Part shown: positions 13,695 to 22,523 of the stretch, in pieces
How the letters are laid out: every line of letters starts with the position of its first letter
Numbering within the stretch: the first letter of the stretch is position 1
NCBI RefSeq assembly: GCF_010730955.1
Contig: NZ_AP022577.1
Location: 5,456,001 to 5,520,000, forward strand
Source of the DNA: Mycolicibacterium aubagnense
GTDB taxonomy: Bacteria; Actinomycetota; Actinomycetes; Mycobacteriales; Mycobacteriaceae
Direction of reading: 5' to 3'
DNA: 64,000 nt
Translations under genes and position numbers: made by a program
The notes under the pieces: generated by a model
Told to the model about the DNA's origin: nothing
The model's input: only the letters and a program-made list of their open reading frames with translations
The model's database searches: none

Positions 13695-14600
13695 CTACCG
13701 TCCGCGGCGCTTCAGGTACCGCTCGAACTCCGCGGCCAGCGCGTCGCCGTCGATCTTGCCGAGCGCCTCAGTCATGTCGACCTCGGCGTCGCCACGCTCC
13801 TCCAGCGACTGCACGTATTCGGCGATCTCTTCGTCGTCGGCCGTCATTTCGGTGACCGACTCTTCCCATTCCTCGGCCTGTGCCGGCAGGTCGCCGAGGG
13901 GCACCTCGACGTCCAGGGCGTCCTCGACCCGGCGGAGCAGCGCGACGGTGGCCTTGGGGCACGGCGGCTGGGACACGTAGTGCGGCACCGCCGCCCAGAA
14001 CGTCACTGCGGGGATGCCGGCCTGCACACAGGCGTCCTGGAACACCCCGGCGATGCCGGTCGGTCCCTCGTAGCGGGTCTCCTCGAGCCCGAAGAACTTG
14101 GCCGAGTCAGCGGAGTACGCGGCGCCCGACACCGGCACGGGCCGAGTGTGCGGCGTGTCGGCGAGCAGCGCGCCCAAGATGACGACGGTCTGCACGTTGA
14201 GCTTGTCCAGGATTGCCAGCAGCTCGGCGCAGAAGGTGCGCCACCGCATGTTCGGCTCGACGCCGTGCATGAGCACCACGTCACGGTCCGAACCCGGCGG
14301 GCGGCAGTGGGAGATGCTCATCGACGGCCACACCAGCTCGCGCGTGACACCGTCGACCTGGCGAATCACCGGACGATTCACCTGGTAGTCGTAATAGCTC
14401 TCATCATCGATCTCGACGATGGTCCGCGCCTCCCACATGGCATCCAGGTGCTCGAGGGCGTCGCTGGCGGCGTCACCGGCGTCATTCCACCCCTCGAATG
14501 CTGCGACGACGACGGCATCGTGCAGTTCGGGCAGGTCAAGGCCCTGGGGTAGGGGCCGGTCGGACGGGCTCACACCGCCAGCGTAAGCCCTTATCGGCAC
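13695..14600 (-). CDS. PAC2-family protein (proteasome assembly chaperone-like)
   Basis: 301 aa from GTG 14600; GTG 14573 is a possible shorter start. The protein has the PAC2 family fold region: VVVAAFEGWNDAGDAASDAL near the N-terminus, DVVLMHGVEPNMRWRTF, and LGALLADTPHTRPVPVSG in the centre, followed by an acidic helical C-terminal tail. The M. tuberculosis homologue (Rv2125, from memory) resembles the eukaryotic proteasome assembly chaperone PAC2, but a role in bacterial proteasome assembly is unproven. It diverges from metH; the 230-bp space between them holds the metH promoter and riboswitch. Confidence 0.88.
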   Translation of the reverse strand: MPIRAYAGGVSPSDRPLPQGLDLPELHDAVVVAAFEGWNDAGDAASDALEHLDAMWEARTIVEIDDESYYDYQVNRPVIRQVDGVTRELVWPSMSISHCRPPGSDRDVVLMHGVEPNMRWRTFCAELLAILDKLNVQTVVILGALLADTPHTRPVPVSGAAYSADSAKFFGLEETRYEGPTGIAGVFQDACVQAGIPAVTFWAAVPHYVSQPPCPKATVALLRRVEDALDVEVPLGDLPAQAEEWEESVTEMTADDEEIAEYVQSLEERGDAEVDMTEALGKIDGDALAAEFERYLKRRGR

Positions 14601-14729
14601 CCGTGAGTGCTACCCCTGGGCGGGTCGGGCCGGCAAACCGGTTTGATAGCGCGCCTACCATGTTTGTGTGACTGCACTGGACAAACAACTGTCCAACGTG
14701 GGCGTCCGAACGCCTGTCAGGTGACGACG

Positions 14730-14735
14730 TAGACT
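14730..14735 (+). promoter_or_regulatory. Predicted metH -10 element
   Basis: TAGACT fits the mycobacterial TANNNT -10 consensus and would put the transcript start near 14742, exactly where the riboswitch P1 stem begins. An inverted repeat TGGACA-N6-TGTCCA at 14678-14695 upstream could be an operator. Not experimentally mapped. Confidence 0.5.
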
Positions 14736-14742
14736 CTTTGAG

Positions 14743-14833
14743 GTCGAGAGGCGTTGCAACGGATCCGGATCGGTGCCGGAATCCGCCACGCTCGGCAGAG
14801 TTAAGGACGCCTTCCGCAATGGAAGGAATGCAC
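14743..14833 (+). ncRNA. S-adenosylhomocysteine (SAH) riboswitch, metH leader
   Basis: The leader fits the SAH-riboswitch layout. P1 is GTCGAG (14743-14748) with CTCGGC (14791-14796). The conserved core AGGCGTTGCAAC follows P1. P2 is GGATCCGG with CCGGAATCC (one bulged A). A pseudoknot AGGCGT (14749-14754) pairs perfectly with ACGCCT (14807-14812). Downstream, CCTTCC (14810-14815) can instead pair with GGAAGG (14821-14826), which is the metH ribosome binding site. The two pairings share 14810-14812 and exclude each other, so SAH binding should free the ribosome site and switch metH on. This logic suits methionine synthase, which consumes the homocysteine made from SAH. Identification is by eye and has not been scored with a covariance model. 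Confidence 0.85.
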
Positions 14834-18627
<3,794 letters not shown>

Positions 18628-18628
<1 letters not shown>

Positions 18629-20946: not shown

Positions 20947-22350
20947 TTAGGTTGTGGGACTGTCGGTTTCGCTATCGTCGTCGCCGCCTTCTTCCTCTGC
21001 CGGGTACAGGGTGGGGTGGTGGTAGTGGTTGGTGCGGGGTTGGCCGGTGTCGAGTAGTGGTGGTGGGGTCCAGTGGGCGCGGCCGTTGTTCATGGTGGTG
21101 GTCCAGCCGCCGGTGTGGGCGGCGCGGTTGTCGCAGCCGCACGCGAGGGCGAGGTTGGTGATGTCGGTGGGGCCACCGTCGGACCAGTCGGTGTCGACGT
21201 GGTGGGCTTGGCAGCGGGAGGCGGGGGCGGTGCAGCCCGGGCGGGTGCAGCCCCGATCACGCGCGAACAGCATGATGCGTTGCCCCGCGGAGGCGGTGCG
21301 CCGGGCCCGGCCCAAATAGAGCGGGATGTTGGTGTGTTGGTCGAAGACCGCGAGGTAGTGGTGGGCGCCGTGGCTGGCCATCCGGATCAGGTCCGGGATG
21401 GGGAGTTTGGTGCCGGTGTGGGTGAGGGCGGTCCCCGTTCCCTGTTGGAGTTCGGTCAGGGTGGTGGTGACCACGATGGTGACGGGTAGGCCGTTGTGGT
21501 TGCCGAGGTCGGTGCCGAGGGTGATACGGCCCGTGGCGGCGAGGGCGTCGTGGTTGCGTTGTTCGGTGCTGCGGGTGTCATTGTCGATCTGGGCTTGGCT
21601 GGGTGTGCCGGACTGGCACGGGGTGGGGTCGGCGGGGTTGCACATGCCGGGGGCGCCGAGTTTGGCGTGGACGGCTTCGAGGGTGGCGCGGGCTTGGGGG
21701 TCGAGCCAGCCGTCGACTTTGGACATGCCGTCGGGTTGCTGTTTGCCGATGCGGACGCTGCGTTTGCGGGCGCGTTCGGCGTCATCGGGTAGTGGCCCGT
21801 CTTGGTCGAGCAGGTAGCGCAATTGGTGGGCTGCGGCCCGGAGTTCTTCGGGGGTTTGGTGTCGGGCTCCGGCGGTCAGTGTCTGTTCGCACTGGGTTTG
21901 GGTGGTGAGGTCGACCCGGGTGGGCAGATTCGCGATGAAGTTGCCGATCACCGCGATGTGCTCGGTGTTGATCGCTCCGGCGGCCTGCGCGGCTGCGGCG
22001 GACTCCCATCGTGGTGGCAACGCTTCCCCGGTGAGCCCTGACCGTGGGCCCAGGTTCTCCATGTCGCGGACCCGGCGCCGGGCTTCCGTGGCGGAGATGC
22101 GCAAGCGAATCCGCAGCACGTCGGCCCAGTTCTTCGCCCCGATCTCTTTCGGGGTGGTTTGGGTGGTCAGGGCGGCCAGGATGCGGTGATCGACCGCTTC
22201 GGCGGCACACCGCAATCGTTCGCGGTGGGACTGTAATTCCAGCAGTTCCGGCACCCCGAGTTCGGTGTAATCGAGGGCAGCGACCCGGGCCACCGCGGCG
22301 TCGAGGTCGGTGTAGACCTCTTCGACGAGGTCCGGATCGGTCAATCCCAT
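20947..22350 (-). CDS. 13E12-family HNH endonuclease/DUF222 protein
   Basis: 467 aa from ATG 22350. The N-terminal two thirds is DUF222 (ADVLRIRLRISATEARRRV, WLDPQARATLEAVHAKLG). The C-terminal region carries an HNH motif: RDRGCTRPGCTAPASRCQAHHVDTDWSDGG then NLALACGCDNRAAHTGGW, with zinc-binding Cys pairs. This is the mycobacterial REP13E12 protein family, several members of which are DNA-damage inducible in M. tuberculosis. An exact SOS box lies directly before the start, supporting LexA control. The 13E12 genes are repetitive and can serve as phage integration targets; no prophage is seen here. The C-terminus is Glu/Asp-rich. Confidence 0.92.
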   Translation of the reverse strand: MGLTDPDLVEEVYTDLDAAVARVAALDYTELGVPELLELQSHRERLRCAAEAVDHRILAALTTQTTPKEIGAKNWADVLRIRLRISATEARRRVRDMENLGPRSGLTGEALPPRWESAAAAQAAGAINTEHIAVIGNFIANLPTRVDLTTQTQCEQTLTAGARHQTPEELRAAAHQLRYLLDQDGPLPDDAERARKRSVRIGKQQPDGMSKVDGWLDPQARATLEAVHAKLGAPGMCNPADPTPCQSGTPSQAQIDNDTRSTEQRNHDALAATGRITLGTDLGNHNGLPVTIVVTTTLTELQQGTGTALTHTGTKLPIPDLIRMASHGAHHYLAVFDQHTNIPLYLGRARRTASAGQRIMLFARDRGCTRPGCTAPASRCQAHHVDTDWSDGGPTDITNLALACGCDNRAAHTGGWTTTMNNGRAHWTPPPLLDTGQPRTNHYHHPTLYPAEEEGGDDDSETDSPTT

Positions 22351-22353
22351 ACT

Positions 22354-22369
22354 TCGAACACTAGTTCGA
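22354..22369. promoter_or_regulatory. LexA/SOS box of the 13E12 gene
   Basis: TCGAAC-ACTA-GTTCGA matches the mycobacterial LexA consensus TCGAAC-N4-GTTCGA at every defined base. It sits 3 bp upstream of the ATG at 22350, so the promoter and a near-leaderless transcript must overlap it, which suits repression. Confidence 0.9.
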
Positions 22370-22523
22370 TGCACCGACAAGTGGGCGTGCCAGATGGGGC
22401 GCTAGTCACCTACTGTGACCAGCGTAAACAAAGTGACCAAAGTTTTTCAGAGGCTTGGAGGGCGGGGTCAAGAACGGCCGCCGAGGGCTCGACCGGCACT
22501 CATTCGCAGCCGAGGTCGGCAGC

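Follow-up and report, generated by a model that had tools for sequence, protein, structure and literature searches.

A probable SAH riboswitch of an actinobacterial subtype in the metH leader of Mycolicibacterium aubagnense

The window analysed here, a 64,000-nt stretch of the 6.3-Mb genome of Mycolicibacterium aubagnense, carries a gene for cobalamin-dependent methionine synthase, metH, whose product scores 1716 bits against TIGR02082 and 2139 bits against NF007024 and holds five Pfam MetH domains, each above its own cut-off. Two in-frame start candidates are present, ATG 14828 and GTG 14834; because GGAAGG of the ribosome-binding site ends at 14826, GTG 14834-14836 is better spaced and is the likely start. 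A leader on the plus strand (14743-14833) sits between a conserved -10 box and metH, and on its other side lies a gene for a PAC2-family protein (13695-14600, minus strand). Elsewhere in the window, a DUF222 protein with a C-terminal HNH endonuclease domain is encoded on the minus strand (20947-22380). The elements of the leader are listed below; core positions follow what is presumably the numbering of the R. solanacearum structure 3NPQ, and positions 30 and 46 were assigned on that numbering with the help of PMC7057144.

14730-14735, plus strand: -10 element TAGACT, 7 nt upstream of P1; transcription start expected at about 14741-14743
14743-14748, plus strand: 5' strand of P1, GTCGAG, partner of 14791-14796
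14749-14754, plus strand: 5' strand of the pseudoknot, AGGCGT, perfect complement of 14807-14812
14755-14759, plus strand: conserved core TGCAA, positions 14-18; TGC is invariant in alignment A3 (below)
14760-14785, plus strand: P2 hairpin, 14760-14768 pairing with 14776-14785, A14780 bulged
14786-14790, plus strand: core CCACG; C14789 is position 30, a G in Proteobacteria
14791-14796, plus strand: 3' strand of P1, CTCGGC, partner of 14743-14748
14803-14806, plus strand: core AAGG; G14805 is position 46, a C in Proteobacteria
14807-14812, plus strand: 3' strand of the pseudoknot, ACGCCT, 6/6 pairs with 14749-14754
14810-14826, plus strand: ribosome-site hairpin CCTTCC(GCAAT)GGAAGG, 14810-14815 with 14821-14826 (6/6); 14810-14812 common with the pseudoknot
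14821-14827, plus strand: ribosome-binding site GGAAGGA; GGAAGG ends 7 nt upstream of GTG 14834
14834-18628, plus strand: metH, likely GTG start

Read directly, the sequence has the layout of an SAH aptamer (P1, core, P2) where the original prediction had placed it, with AGGCGTTGCAAC at 14749-14760, and its elements follow one another as in the RF01057 class: P1, core, P2, CCA core, the 3' strand of P1, a joining stretch, AA and the pseudoknot strand. The same prediction had claimed a perfect 6-bp pseudoknot and a 6-bp hairpin that hides the ribosome site; all six pairs form in each, and the three bases that they were said to share do belong to both, making the two structures mutually exclusive, a sharing that recurs in 82/82 distinct leaders of related loci. 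The TAGACT element had been taken to fix the transcript start at P1: the box itself stands, since TANNNT lies 5-8 nt upstream of P1 in 82/82 mycobacterial-type leaders (TAGACT in 77), whereas 0.7% of random window positions carry one even at a wider spacing of 4-14 nt; the start at P1 is probable because this conserved box lies just upstream. At a looser spacing of 2-16 nt, TANNNT is found in 49/55 other actinobacterial rows. A sigma-70 two-box promoter was rejected, as a generic scan found none and only the -10 box is supported. Rejected too was a coding explanation for the leader, in which a TTG-started frame from 14738 runs into metH: conservation tracks the RNA pairs, and P2 varies in length. 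No terminator was found in the window's own metH leader.

How does this element stand to the known family? When 351 bases (14600-14950) were searched against 4227 Rfam families, RF01057, the SAH riboswitch, was the sole family at E<=10. The match spans 14740-14819 at full model length, with 23.1 bits and an E value of 0.026, which, divided over the families, gives a chance figure of about 6e-6 for RF01057 alone. Because this score lies 14 bits below the curated gathering cut-off of 37, a default Rfam scan comes out without RF01057; likewise, RF01057 searches of the whole genome (E<=0.001 and E<=0.05) did not have the window leader among their matches. The anticipated covariance-model hit thus covers exactly the expected span, sub-threshold here but above threshold in 11 of the 32 other actinobacterial loci scanned (L147 and L152 were left out of the 34 available), all 32 of which match, the best at 44.6 bits. 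One of those that pass, the metH leader L176 (41.3 bits), has the same pseudoknot letters as the window. Since homologues with the same core pass, the value of 37 is treated as a threshold and not as a defining feature. All 13 mycobacterial or nocardioid metH leaders scanned match at the aptamer with 22-34 bits, 0/13 reaching 37, each single match being weak (E 0.012 to 8 at that search size): with the Rfam cut-off applied, the element goes unseen in the mycobacterial leaders scanned. A class-wide RF01057 search matched 54/296 genomes at E<=0.05, 12 of them over the cut-off and 0/12 from the window's genus; as a positive control, the model was run on the class to which L098 (a Proteobacteria bacterium) belongs, where it matched 56/143 genomes, each of them above the cut-off. 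One mycobacterial genome, G174, holds a second weak RF01057 match besides its metH leader (contig C12, 465549-465633; 25.9 bits).

Within the mycobacteria the element is widespread. The leader DNA matches 32/61 genomes, all 32 among the 37 genomes of the same genus. A set of 100 loci was assembled from 30 leader-matched places and 70 loci from named genomes fetched via metH (with an out-of-frame query that still returned metH loci); 89 contain the motif, in 82 distinct versions, and because the leader itself served as the query for 30 of the 100, 59/70 is the fairer count. The 82 were chosen by a pattern that already contained CCACGCTCG and GG(A/G)CGCC. Among the leaders of the genus the core GAGAGGCGTTGCAACGG...CCGCCACGCTCG and AAGGACGCCTTCC is nearly constant, and the P2 loop differs in length and sequence. 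The closest named locus, L059 from a Mycolicibacterium sp., encodes a MetH 97.5% identical over 200 residues, and the element also precedes metH in Nocardioides sp. Root682 (L086) and in a Propionibacteriales MAG (L079).

A covariance model, R1, built from 53 sequences, extends the distribution further: at E<=0.05 it matches 87/298 genomes of the order and 79/394 of the class, counts that come from overlapping samples and include false weak matches. Forty R1 matches outside the genus, spread over families, were fetched; 34 hold the motif and six were judged false (L157, L158, L172-L175). The genes downstream of the 34 aptamers are metH (23), ahcY (6), adenosine deaminase (3), a methyltransferase (1) and a MOSC protein (1), so that a gene of SAM recycling or the SAH cycle (metH, ahcY or adenosine deaminase) follows in 32/34, as metH does in the window; at L149 the metH match covers only the C-terminal part within the fetched stretch. 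The ahcY product splits SAH into adenosine and homocysteine, adenosine deaminase removes the adenosine and MetH remethylates the homocysteine: all three serve SAH disposal. Adenosine deaminase, whose gene immediately follows the aptamer at L154, L167 and L179, is a target absent from the passages that describe the proteobacterial regulon. The two remaining loci, both on the minus strand, are L155 (1979-2058), where the aptamer precedes a MOSC-domain protein gene with no evident link to SAH, and L159 (1970-2042), from another genus of the same family, where it precedes a class I methyltransferase gene.

Is the fold itself under selection? Alignment A3 has 77 rows, of which 12 come from the 82 mycobacterial-type leaders, 36 are other actinobacterial and 29 proteobacterial (it omits L149, whose 3' end was mis-parsed, as well as L165, L242 and most of L180-L209). 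In its structure 98.1% of pairs are standard and both partners vary in 12/18; the covariation score, 0.469, compares with 0.189 for shuffles, 0/500 of which scored as high, although the shuffles do not keep relatedness; in six controls with the structure slid along the alignment, pairing falls to 26-44%. Shuffles and slid controls led us to reject chance hairpins. By element, P1 has 98.9% of cells paired and both-side changes in 4/6 pairs, P2 has 95% over five counted pairs and changes in 4/5, and the pseudoknot has 99.6% over the 77 sequences and changes in 3/6, its variants at three pairs being A-U/G-C/G-U, G-C/A-U/G-U and C-G/U-A/U-G. The pseudoknot covariation expected in related genomes was thus found, as compensatory changes across two phyla. 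The shuffles ignore relatedness and each phylum differs from the other as a block, so that there are fewer independent events than the cell counts suggest; this weakness applies less to the slid control and to the U-A/U-G/C-G series within Actinobacteria. The mycobacterial-only set, A2, says little alone because its pseudoknot scarcely varies (nearly invariant, with one U-G); it is therefore sequences from outside the genus that supply the strong covariation. Additional compensated pairs of the pseudoknot (A12-U49 or U13-A48) occur in the proteobacterial loci L288, L293, L299, L300, L303, L304, L307, L308 and L320, some of which carry G at position 28.

The competition between pseudoknot and ribosome-site hairpin is equally conserved. 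Across the 82 mycobacterial-type leaders the hairpin overlaps the 3' strand of the pseudoknot by 3 nt (80 leaders) or 4 nt (two leaders), and a script finds an overlap in all 55 other actinobacterial rows (three of them mycobacterial, from the genome sample), although its reading of L149 and L178 is distrusted. Mycobacteria build the hairpin from CCUUCC/GGAAGG, most others from CCUCC/GGAGG, so that the change is compensated. Computed energies are -8.3 kcal/mol for the pseudoknot duplex and -7.8 for the hairpin. At two ahcY loci, L145 (2000-2110) and L151 (2000-2085), the pseudoknot strand lies, by eye, inside a terminator-like hairpin with a U run downstream; L156 (2000-2080) probably has the same, and inspection of the other three of the six ahcY loci by eye revealed no such hairpin. 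As read from these sequences, the terminator-like hairpin is a putative transcriptional version of the same ON switch. Since the ribosome-site hairpin draws on the 3' strand of the pseudoknot, a bound ligand should switch expression on, and the ON direction is predicted from both platforms because each competes with the pseudoknot.

The reading that we favor, with a probability of roughly 0.88, is that an actinobacterial subtype of SAH riboswitch occupies the metH leader and acts as an ON switch of translation. This reading is grounded in the fold, its conservation and covariation, the shared strand, the gene context and homology to RF01057; from these we infer the ligand, its effect on the fold and the direction of control. 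The transcript would begin at the edge of P1. At low SAH, 14810-14815 would pair with the ribosome site, and little metH would be translated; when SAH is high, the core would bind it and the pseudoknot (14749-14754/14807-14812) would be locked, taking the strand that the hairpin needs and freeing the ribosome site. MetH would then remethylate homocysteine, the product of SAH hydrolysis.

What sets the actinobacterial form apart is a change at two core positions. The window core equals the proteobacterial consensus at positions 14-18, 27-29, 31, 44, 45 and 47 and departs from it twice, with C in place of G at 30 and G in place of C at 46, a difference that the original prediction had not mentioned. 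In A3, C30/G46 is found in 48/48 actinobacterial rows and G30/C46 in 29/29 proteobacterial rows, the two positions being complementary in all 77; the other main core differences between the phyla are two compensated pseudoknot pairs adjoining P1. In the 82 mycobacterial leaders C30/G46 is there partly by construction, because the selecting pattern contained it, and the 34 further actinobacterial loci were found by R1, a model built on such leaders and thus favoring C30/G46. A less biased check is the class search with RF01057, whose consensus is G30/C46: 29 of 30 fetched loci were read by script, all as C30/G46, and the one remaining, L201, coincides with the site L171. For the other phylum, a mixed-phylum covariance model (R2, whose given structure misplaced one P1 pair, joining column 9 with 67, not 72) returned 70 loci including weak matches, of which 66 have G30/C46 (46 by script, 20 by eye), L322 was not assigned to either state, and L328, L331 and L334 were judged false. 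R2 also matched 8/144 genomes in the class of L096, one locus being judged real on reading: L244, from the class of a Deltaproteobacteria record, which has G30/C46 and lies upstream of a gene that reads, by eye, as ahcY. None of the matches in 6/142 genomes of the class of L095 was real on reading, and plasmid searches for proteobacterial aptamers gave no record with 80% of the query covered. A few rows were mis-parsed in the automatic counts (L155 and L228, and a single row from each of the mycobacterial, actinobacterial and proteobacterial sets); L155 and L228 fit the phylum pattern without exception once aligned in A3, and, script mis-parses aside, no mixed 30/46 combination was seen among the loci read. 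The simplest reading of these sequences is that positions 30 and 46 probably pair and were inverted once, a single event being weak evidence for pairing; the two-phylum alignment accordingly predicts a 30-46 pair in the actinobacterial pocket. The inversion is compatible with membership in RF01057 because 11 homologues that carry it pass the Rfam cut-off.

Could the inversion have changed the ligand? Other adenine compounds are said to bind proteobacterial SAH aptamers appreciably, and a relative of the SAH aptamer whose inverted 30/46 prefers another adenine-bearing metabolite (SAM, adenosine or ATP), with the same ON switch, would fit the clean split of C30/G46 and G30/C46 between the phyla. 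The description of the pocket in PMC7057144 places G15, C16, A29 and C46 around SAH, with G15 and C16 as contacts and C46 close to the homocysteine tail, so that the 30/46 change lies in the ligand pocket. We nonetheless regard a different ligand as unlikely: ahcY, metH and adenosine deaminase make up 32 of the 34 genes under the aptamer, and a thirty-third encodes a methyltransferase; G15, C16 and A29 are unchanged; and the local geometry at 30/46 may be kept because both changes stay complementary. An SAH-binding actinobacterial aptamer thus remains the preferred reading. To a broader version of it we give even odds: that Actinobacteria have a distinct, class-wide SAH riboswitch subtype with the ligand-side core pair inverted, which controls a metH/ahcY/adenosine deaminase regulon via two exchangeable ON platforms (ribosome-site hairpin and intrinsic terminator) and whose selectivity may differ from that of the solved proteobacterial aptamers.

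Eleven of the 100 loci fail the pattern, namely eight distant or partial ones (L093-L100), Nocardioides Root140 (L091) and the MAGs L032 and L033; none shows another intact form when read by eye, and searches from L093, L099 and L100 gave one weak match, in the genome of L100, that was judged not real. In L032 and L033, whose MetH is more than 92% identical (200 residues), the aptamer within the 100-150 bases that precede metH has decayed, L032 retaining a corrupted CCACG..GGCAGAG remnant, and the ribosome-site hairpin is kept. Could the hairpin, then, work without any small-molecule ligand, masking the ribosome site at all times or on behalf of a protein? Its persistence in these two MAGs speaks for this, as does its predicted probability of near 1 in the RNA alone, a prediction that does not include pseudoknots; yet such a hairpin would leave unexplained the invariant unpaired core, the compensated pseudoknot, the match to RF01057 and the SAH-cycle genes that the loci have in common, and we consider it very improbable. 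Under the favored SAH switch, the L032 and L033 leaders are apparent cases of natural loss. Of the 37 genomes of the genus, five have no leader match: three near-complete ones (G029, G010 and G015; L259-L261) carry a different MetH, 38-39% identical, and in the two incomplete ones no MetH match was found. The element thus seems to follow one metH lineage, and the three near-complete genomes suggest replacement of the MetH gene together with loss of the switch. Least credible of all is an OFF switch, in which the bound aptamer lowers metH expression: most SAM riboswitches are of this kind, but the pseudoknot competes for 14810-14812 with the ribosome-site hairpin here, and with the terminator-like hairpin at the ahcY loci L145 and L151, both of which predict ON.

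The predicted SAH ON switch has its closest counterparts among the proteobacterial members of RF01057 (R. solanacearum 3NPQ and the metH aptamer of Dechloromonas aromatica). Both types have P1, P2 and the 6-bp pseudoknot in the same order, share the core TGC(A/G)(A/G), C-C-A and AA before the 3' strand of the pseudoknot, and lie upstream of metH or ahcY; they differ in the pseudoknot, AGGCGU/ACGCCU in the window and most often GAGCGC/GCGCUC in Proteobacteria, and in having C30/G46 instead of G30/C46. The SAH riboswitch reportedly activates gene expression, and the ON logic predicted here would be another common trait. A passage in PMC7057144 states activation for the ahcY SAH riboswitch, the parts of PMC4239095 on targets list ahcY, metF and sometimes metH under proteobacterial SAH riboswitches, and the D. 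aromatica metH aptamer binds SAH at about 20 nM, according to a passage in PMC11790956. The SAM/SAH riboswitch, as the relevant part of PMC7367207 describes it, likewise binds SAH and has a pseudoknot, but it also binds SAM with similar affinity and is an H-type pseudoknot of one stem-loop; its family had no Rfam match at E<=10 in 14600-14950. SAH riboswitches in Mycobacteriaceae are already in print: one sentence of PMC3766115 reports them as identified by Rfam covariance models, and these are very probably the same as the metH leader, although gene, coordinates, mechanism and core difference are not named in that passage. In the open-access full texts covered (subscription papers and supplements being outside the scope), no further description of the mycobacterial metH element or of the 30/46 inversion was noticed; what appears undescribed is the actinobacterial C30/G46 against the proteobacterial G30/C46, probably an inverted pair beside the ligand. 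The actinobacterial form, a putative SAH sensor RNA missed by standard annotation, may deserve its own description.

A second comparison lies within the mycobacteria themselves, with the cobalamin riboswitch of metE, which we take to be a different RNA class. Both are leader RNA switches on a methionine synthase (PMC8088520, PMC12713380), but, in the parts of those papers that concern it, the metE switch represses its gene and responds to a ligand other than the SAH predicted for metH. Passages in PMC8088520 explain the essentiality of metH in M. smegmatis by cobalamin-riboswitch repression of metE, and those seen of a 2025 review of cobamide metabolism in M. tuberculosis (PMC12713380) treat metE as the switch-controlled synthase; 'SAH' and 's-adenosylhomocysteine' each occur 0 times in its main text. 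If the reading proposed here is true, metH would carry a second riboswitch of opposite sign, and two RNA sensors, for B12 and for SAH, would together set mycobacterial methionine synthesis.
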